A stretch of DNA of 64,000 nucleotides from Gemmatimonadaceae bacterium (lineage in GTDB: Bacteria > Gemmatimonadota > Gemmatimonadetes > Gemmatimonadales > Gemmatimonadaceae), in NCBI GenBank assembly GCA_025934775.1, contig JAICWO010000001.1, forward strand, positions 310,001-374,000, in the 5' to 3' direction. Of the stretch, positions 12,822 to 14,092 are shown in pieces. Position 1 is the stretch's first letter, and every line of letters starts with the position of its first letter. The notes beneath the pieces were generated by a model. That model was not told where the DNA came from. It was given only the letters and a program-made list of their open reading frames with translations, and made no database searches. The translations under genes were made by a program, and so were the position numbers.

Positions 12822-13190
12822 TTAGATTGGTTCGGCGATGCTCTCGAGGATCTTACGACGGTAGGCGTAGAGCATCTTCCGGATTTCGACCGTTTCAGCG
12901 TTCAGCCTCTGCCACGAGTCGGGCGCGATCAACTCGAGGTCGCGCGCTTCGATCAGATGGTGTTCAGTCTCATTCGCCGATTTGATGGCGATGTCGAGAA
13001 AGCGCGCGAACTCCTTTTGCGTCGCCGCGCCGCAGCCTTCGACGATGTTCGCCGAGATGCTGCTCGCGGATCGCGTGAGCTGCGCGCGGAGCGCTGCGTA
13101 GCCCGCCCCGAATCCGCGCGACGTTTTGTGGAGCGCGATGGACATCGCGTGCGCACGCTGCCACGCGCGAATCTGCCGGAAGTCCTGCAT
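12822..13190 (-). CDS. Four-helix-bundle protein (23S rRNA IVP / S23-like)
   Basis: Protein of 122 aa of the IVP/S23 four-helix-bundle family, which also includes Avd of diversity-generating retroelements. The start MQDFRQIRAWQRAHAMS and the central LTRSASSISANIVEGCGAATQKEFARFLDIAIKSA signature with ETEHHLIEARDL are diagnostic. The homologous region begins at the ATG chosen here; upstream sequence is repeat-derived. Members are often solitary genes of unknown role or lie within 23S rRNA insertions; no rRNA is near. The gene is flanked on both sides by inverted copies of a GAGACGCGAG-rich repeat, which suggests a mobile cassette. Confidence 0.87.
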   Translation of the reverse strand: MQDFRQIRAWQRAHAMSIALHKTSRGFGAGYAALRAQLTRSASSISANIVEGCGAATQKEFARFLDIAIKSANETEHHLIEARDLELIAPDSWQRLNAETVEIRKMLYAYRRKILESIAEPI

Positions 13191-13274
13191 GTCGTACGCT
13201 ACGCGCCATGCGCCGCGCAACATCACCGATCCAACGCACGCCGCGCCATTGCGCCGCCGTTCCCAACAAAAAGT

Positions 13275-13365
13275 CTCGCGTCTCGAATCTCGCGTCTCGC
13301 GTCTGGTAACTAGTCTCACCCAGCGACGTCGCGATCCACGATTTGCGTCTCGCGCCCTCCGCGTC
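13275..13365 (-). repeat. GAGACGCGAGA-type repeat, upstream flank of the four-helix-bundle gene
   Basis: Read on the minus strand, 13319..13275 is GAGACTAGTTACCAGAC followed by several GCGAGAC units. It mirrors the downstream flank (GAGACCAGTTACGAGAC...). Degenerate units (GCGTCTCGCG, CCGCGTCTCACG on plus) continue to about 13365. Nothing else is visible in the 186-nt gap. Confidence 0.6.
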
Positions 13366-13376
13366 TCACGCACCCC

Positions 13377-13949
13377 TCACCACACCGACGCCCTCTTCGC
13401 CCAACTCGTCCCGGCGTACCTCCCCTCGAACCTCCTCCTCAACTCCGCAAGCTCCTCATGCGCATGACTCCCACTGTACCTCGCCACCCCCGCCCAGTAC
13501 TGCCCCTCCGGCCCCGCATCCGTATGCTCCCGGCCCGACGCAGTCTCGAACCACCGCTCTGCCGTGCGCCAATCCTTCTTCGTCGTCGCGAGATGTCCGA
13601 GCGCCAGCTCGAGCTGTCCGATGAACTCGTCTTCCGGCAGGAACCCCTCGATCCGTCGAATCTCCTTGCCTTCGGGTGAGAGCACGAGCACCGTCGGTGT
13701 CCAGCGAATCGCGAAGCGGTGCCACGCCTGCGGTTGCTGCTTGACGTGCTGCCGCACGGGAACGAACTGCGCATCGATCAGCGCCGTGACCGCCGGCGCG
13801 GGGTACACCTCGGCTTCCAGCCGAGCGCAGCCACTTCAGTTCGGGGCGGCGGTGAAGTCGATGAGCAGCGGACGGTTCGTGCGCTTCGCTTCGTCGAACG
13901 CGGCGTCCACGTCGTGCTGCCATGCGATCTCGTGCGCGGTCGTGGCCAT
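13377..13949 (-). CDS. Selenocysteine-containing thioredoxin-family protein (UxxC, in-frame TGA codon 38)
   Basis: Thioredoxin-fold protein of 190 aa when the TGA at 13838..13836 is read as selenocysteine. The N-terminal part reads EAKRTNRPLLIDFTAAPN, then TGA, then SGCARLEAEVYPAPAV. The TGA therefore falls exactly on the first Cys position of a CxxC redox motif (U38-S-G-C41). Homology continues on both sides: the FAIRWTPTVLVLSPEGKE cis-Pro region and GFLPEDEFIGQLELALG, then a C-terminal helical (TPR-like) segment ending WAKRASVW. GGGAG precedes the ATG by 6 nt, supporting the upstream start. A SECIS-like hairpin follows the TGA. The alternative is a nonsense-mutated pseudogene, but codons after the TGA are fully conserved. 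Likely role is thiol-disulphide exchange or peroxide reduction. Confidence 0.85.
13809..13838 (-). promoter_or_regulatory. Bacterial SECIS element with its UGA codon
   Basis: On the minus strand the TGA (13838..13836) is followed by 10 nt and then CTCGGC-TGGAA-GCCGAG (13825..13809), a perfect 6-bp stem with a 5-nt loop. The loop starts 16 nt after the TGA and has G at its second position. Both fit the published bacterial SECIS rules (loop 16-37 nt from UGA; G in the first two loop bases). Confidence 0.78.
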
Positions 13950-14092
13950 GTGATCTCCCAGTCGCTCGGAGCATGGCGGTCGAGCAAGCCGCGTTCCGTG
14001 TTATCGCGCGATCGCGCGATCGTGCTAGCGCCGGCCGGCGGACTCACGCATTCTCTTGCGGTAGCGCTCCCTCCACTCGATCGAGATCTCAC

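Follow-up and report, generated by a model that had tools for sequence, protein, structure and literature searches.

The gene at 13377..13949 (minus strand) of the window, the whole 64,000-nucleotide stretch of DNA analysed here, very probably contains a stop codon that is decoded as selenocysteine (Sec), yielding a thioredoxin-like redox protein of 190 residues. We suggest, with a probability of about 0.88, that the product is a cytosolic selenoprotein that receives Sec at residue 38 through SelB and an RNA hairpin, and that it acts as a thiol/disulfide oxidoreductase of the thioredoxin fold. What is decisive for a selenoprotein, on sequence comparison, is the conservation of the TGA codon among relatives together with a hairpin stem that is frozen at its silent positions.

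The gene and its in-frame TGA

The minus-strand frame 13949..13377 starts with ATG at 13949, covers 190 codons to a final TGA stop (13379..13377), and has a single internal stop, the TGA at codon 38 (13836..13838), which would be read as Sec. The codon context is CCG-AAC-TGA-AGT-GGC-TGC, that is APN-U-SGC. The resulting U-S-G-C redox motif occupies residues 38-41 (13827..13838), and its Cys41 is the sole cysteine in the protein. GGGAG, which resembles a ribosome-binding site, lies 5 nt before the ATG (13955..13959), and an alignment of 37 relatives shows conservation over the whole length of the gene. The sequence-only reading had described a well-placed ribosome site and ATG, and a frame broken once, by the TGA of APN-TGA-SGC; both descriptions are exact in the sequence (TGA at 13838..13836). 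It had further warned that a standard gene caller would truncate the gene and lose the catalytic N terminus. The ordinary ORF list indeed holds just a 143-aa fragment, 13377..13808 from a GTG, without the U-S-G-C motif.

The fragment could be taken as a separate downstream gene that starts from GTG 13808, since this is how an ordinary caller lists it. Residues upstream of the TGA are, however, conserved as much as downstream ones, in keeping with the thioredoxin homology that had been claimed for both sides, and in the structural model the thioredoxin fold requires both halves. We regard a separate gene as very improbable. In the region 12822-13373, GAGACGCGAGA-like repeats stand directly downstream of the selenoprotein gene, followed by an ORF (12822..13373, minus strand) that we take to resemble four-helix-bundle proteins.

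Decoding machinery and the SECIS hairpin

The genome of the window, a 4.88-Mb assembly that is 99% complete, was searched with profiles for the components of Sec decoding. SelA (560 bits, cut-off 268), SelB (356 bits, cut-off 242) and SelD (380 bits) were found, as was tRNA-Sec at 74.5 bits against a gathering score of 47, which ARAGORN also called as tRNA-SeC with anticodon tca (UCA). The full kit of selA, selB, selC and selD is present, so the earlier suggestion that this organism decodes UGA as Sec gains the genes it called for; judged from its gene content, the organism can be expected to do so. Rfam and ARAGORN gave no match for tRNA-Sec at the selA, selB and window-gene loci; the tRNA gene lies elsewhere (C15:6956-7049), directly adjoining selD. 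The SelD gene (L021, C15:7147-8067) itself contains an in-frame TGA, in the context CAG-U-AAK, and is a selenoprotein gene too. We take this TGA to be at the catalytic position of SelD. When the SECIS of the genome's own SelD was folded, it had no obvious likeness to the hairpin of the window gene.

In bacteria, the SECIS element is a hairpin just downstream of the UGA with a G within a small apical loop (PMC1088965). Downstream of codon 38 there is a perfect 6-bp stem, CTCGGC/GCCGAG (CUCGGC/GCCGAG in the RNA), with the loop UGGAA (TGGAA in the DNA) placed 16 nt past the UGA (13809..13825, minus strand). The stem, loop and spacing given by the sequence-only reading were thus exact, but agreement with the rule, on which that reading had relied, is too weak by itself, and it is the comparison with relatives that carries the proof. 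The hairpin alone is mildly unusual in its stability (z -1.96; 9 of 200 shuffles were equally stable), and under a lenient rule a SECIS-like stem follows 267 of the 1794 codons in four ordinary genes of the window. In DNA so rich in GC, such stems often arise by chance and are weak evidence alone. Because a stem is so cheap here, the proof must come from the genome and the relatives.

The relatives provide it. Among 44 distinct members, the stretch from codon +4 to codon +9, counted from the UGA, is frozen at its silent positions: GCT occurs in 41/44, CGG, CTG, GCC and GAG each in 44/44, and the one remaining codon, between CTG and GCC, is mostly GAA or GAT. GCT makes up 10% of the Ala codons elsewhere in the family genes. 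The invariant residues just outside the stem (Leu-9, Ala-4, Ala-3, Pro-2 and Val+10) are each written with four codons. Since silent sites are frozen across the stem while the flanking codons vary, selection acts here on the RNA, on a real bacterial SECIS; protein selection would leave the frozen codons unexplained, and a hairpin needed in the RNA would explain them. In the main family no covariation can be measured because the stem hardly varies.

Other versions of the site differ from this pattern. A divergent Sec clade (L125, L127, L152, L153, L155, L157-L159), with the motifs PGULGC and NPHUIGC, has the SECIS-like stem GGAUGC/GUAUCC, and its UGA-to-loop distance of 23 nt is 7 nt longer than in the main family. 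In this clade 98% of the cells pair, and covariation in its SECIS was not significant (99 of 500 shuffles). In the Planctomycetes members L101 and L102, just the 4 innermost base pairs of the stem are kept. At the same place in the Cys versions of the gene, described below, the fold is poor or the stem is absent (L156, -4.7 kcal/mol).

Insertion of Sec at residue 38 by SelB and the hairpin is therefore strongly supported by the comparative data. SelB carrying Sec-tRNA(UCA) would recognise the hairpin, whose loop lies 16 nt beyond the UGA, and Sec would be placed at residue 38 without termination.

Distribution of the family and Cys-for-Sec exchange

We searched 298 genomes of the phylum, 288 of the order, 396 of the phylum of an acidobacterial relative, and the named GTDB collection. 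In the last of these, an alignment query with peptide patterns that exclude residue 38 gave 47 loci; single-sequence scans of genome contigs and viral contigs gave no match. Among named records, the protein's closest relatives come from Gemmatimonadaceae assemblies, so the organism itself probably belongs to this family. Record titles of full-length relatives name Gemmatimonadetes, Acidobacteria, Zixibacteria, Eisenbacteria, Verrucomicrobia, Planctomycetes, Deltaproteobacteria and Terrabacteria ANGP1, where the phylum names are the depositors' labels and most of the records are metagenome bins. By these labels, the family would span about seven phyla, with Gemmatimonadota and Acidobacteriota among them. 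Some assemblies have two copies of the gene, L056 and L057 in G255 and L028 and L055 in G076. In G076 the second copy hardly differs from the copy in G270, so bins may have been mixed in this case.

The motif was located at 65 loci, which make up 46 distinct windows, and all of them have the TGA, as do three further loci. It is also found in nearly all full-length hits from the 396 genomes of the acidobacterial phylum; those order-level hits that show no TGA are fragments which do not cover this position. There are two full-length exceptions, L033 (35% identical) and L156, both with TGC and the motif CKGC. The alignment of homologues that the earlier reading had asked for hence gives Sec at position 38 in all but two, and Cys in those. 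A nonsense mutation, a pseudogene or a sequencing error would leave just such a mark as an in-frame TGA, taken by itself. Yet the same TGA recurs in independent assemblies from several phyla, the downstream frame is intact with conserved residues and the SECIS codons are frozen. The chance that the gene is broken is negligible on these conservation data, which refute a pseudogene or sequencing error in practice; the latter had been named as what would overturn the first reading, and it is excluded by the independent assemblies.

Co-occurrence with selA was then compared between the two versions. All TGA-bearing genomes tested have selA (9/9, 24/24 and 20/20), two of them as fragments only, whereas the genomes with the Cys versions (G285 for L033 and G754 for L156) gave no match in a selA search. 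The association has a Fisher p of 0.004, with fragments counted as absent and two Cys genomes. In the acidobacterial phylum, however, 15/20 genomes without this selenoprotein gene also have selA. Because selA is so common in genomes that lack the gene, its co-occurrence with the gene is modest evidence. The exchange to Cys in genomes with no selA match is the telling part, and it comes from two genomes. It also bears on the idea that UGA encodes some other amino acid: Cys, not Trp or another residue, takes the place of the TGA there, and the Sec machinery is present in the genome of the window. We hold such a recoding, too, to be very improbable. That selA is so widespread in both phyla hints at a wider, still unstudied set of selenoproteins among soil bacteria.

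These findings have some wider importance. Gemmatimonadota and Acidobacteriota are absent from the text of two reviews of prokaryotic selenoproteomes (PMC13188914, PMC9312934). Judging by this family, many uncultured members of the two phyla probably employ a thiol redox protein that contains Sec. The family has real annotation value: since ordinary ORF calling drops the active site, a curated family model would correct many genomes. In addition, Sec in genomes with selA, Cys in those without it, and a frozen SECIS make a clean natural test of how selenium benefits an enzyme of thioredoxin fold.

Fold, proposed function and relation to known systems

Residues 6-115 (13605..13934) form a thioredoxin-fold domain. 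The domain matches PF13098 (Thioredoxin_2) with 53.8 bits against a cut-off of 27, and an AlphaFold2 model based on 37 members has a pLDDT of 94.5. The assignment to the thioredoxin family made from the letters is thus borne out. The closest folds are the C-terminal domain of a Bacteroides protein (3f9u, Z 14.2), DsbD-gamma (1vrs_E, Z 13.8), DsbH (2ju5, Z 13.4) and thioredoxins (Z 13-14). In the model a helix begins at residue 39, with Sec38 and Cys41 on either side of its start. Residues 83-85 are W-T-P (13695..13703), where Pro85 would correspond to the cis-proline position of thioredoxin; positions 38 and 41 and Pro85 are invariant in the 37 members. The protein also has C-terminal TPR-like helices, residues 126-187 (13389..13574), which the first reading had not noticed. 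TPR_6 was matched in this region in 25/37 members, and residues 105-190 superpose on the TPRs of BamD (5efr) with Z 12.7. We looked for a hydrophobic or export-signal-like N terminus in the window protein and found none. The Planctomycetes members L101 and L102 have a signal-peptide-like N terminus, and there the protein may be exported.

We predict that the protein is most likely a cytosolic UxxC thiol/disulfide oxidoreductase. From its fold and motif, the selenolate of Sec38 would attack a substrate at a disulfide or a comparable oxidised group. Cys41 would then resolve the mixed bond, after which a reductant of the cell would restore the Sec38-Cys41 pair. The TPR-like helices at the C terminus probably serve to bind the substrate or a partner protein. 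Clustering of gene neighbours at about 45 loci showed nothing recurrent beyond near relatives; as no neighbour recurs, there is no operon partner that would hint at the substrate. Alternatively, peroxides could themselves be the target that Sec38 reduces, Cys41 then being the resolving residue. Sec is generally known to heighten reactivity towards peroxides and thioredoxin-fold enzymes include peroxidases, but the motif here is UxxC on a Thioredoxin_2 fold, and a weak Redoxin match appeared in only 1/37 members. A selenium peroxidase is accordingly improbable.

A chaperedoxin like CnoX/YbbN is another candidate. In such a protein the TPR part would hold oxidised or unfolded clients and the thioredoxin domain, in which Sec would be a faster nucleophile, would repair their thiols. 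Like CnoX, which consists of thioredoxin plus TPR and which in Caulobacter is also a reductase (PMC6282202), the model has a thioredoxin domain followed by TPR-like helices, and YbbN structures (3qou/3qdn) are among the top Foldseek hits. On the other hand, the chain as a whole superposes poorly on YbbN (rmsd 11), the TPR part is short at only about 60-85 residues, the active site of the window protein carries Sec, and a common domain order does not prove function. After being weighed as an assignment, CnoX/YbbN was retained as a rival, which we find doubtful. A bolder form is a little more doubtful still: that this is an old, almost obligately selenium-dependent Trx-TPR family of soil phyla, a selenium chaperedoxin that rescues oxidised clients, with an exceptionally constrained SECIS. 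We return to the UxxC oxidoreductase as the preferred reading in the comparisons below.

Among other known proteins, DsbD gamma and DsbH, which are near in fold, serve the periplasm and use CxxC, whereas the window protein has UxxC and an N terminus unlike an export signal. The Sec-containing thioredoxin (PF00085, UxxC) is alike in fold, in the position of UxxC and in the proline at the cis-Pro position, but our family has AAPxUxGC instead of WCGPC and extra C-terminal helices. Classical thioredoxin (TIGR01068) was rejected, with 21.4 bits against a cut-off of 96.8 and the motif APNUSGC rather than WCGPC. In an NCBIfam scan of the 37 members no model reached its cut-off. With the window protein, the models TsoB, VPGUxxT types 1 and 2, and Trx7/PDZ scored 47.1, 40.6, 29.3 and 27.8 bits against cut-offs of 805, 275, 350 and 300, respectively, and their E-values for the other 36 members were similarly weak. 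They are distant relatives through their thioredoxin domains, have motifs and architectures unlike those of the window protein, and were likewise rejected.

A Trx-TPR or AAPxUxGC family is not named in the entries consulted of the 2026 catalogue (PMC13188914), and deep-Sep names no such family. Table 1 of that catalogue does contain a Sec "thiol:disulfide interchange protein" with PF13098 Thioredoxin_2 and UxxC, WP_011366075.1. Compared by description only, it shares the Pfam domain and UxxC with the window protein; PMC13188914 does not mention a TPR part, and the phyla Gemmatimonadota and Acidobacteriota do not appear there. As a kind, thioredoxin-fold UxxC selenoproteins are known, and Thioredoxin_2 with UxxC is already catalogued (PMC13188914). 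The window family, which may be a branch of the WP_011366075.1 kind, is a genuine and apparently so far unmodelled family of this known kind.
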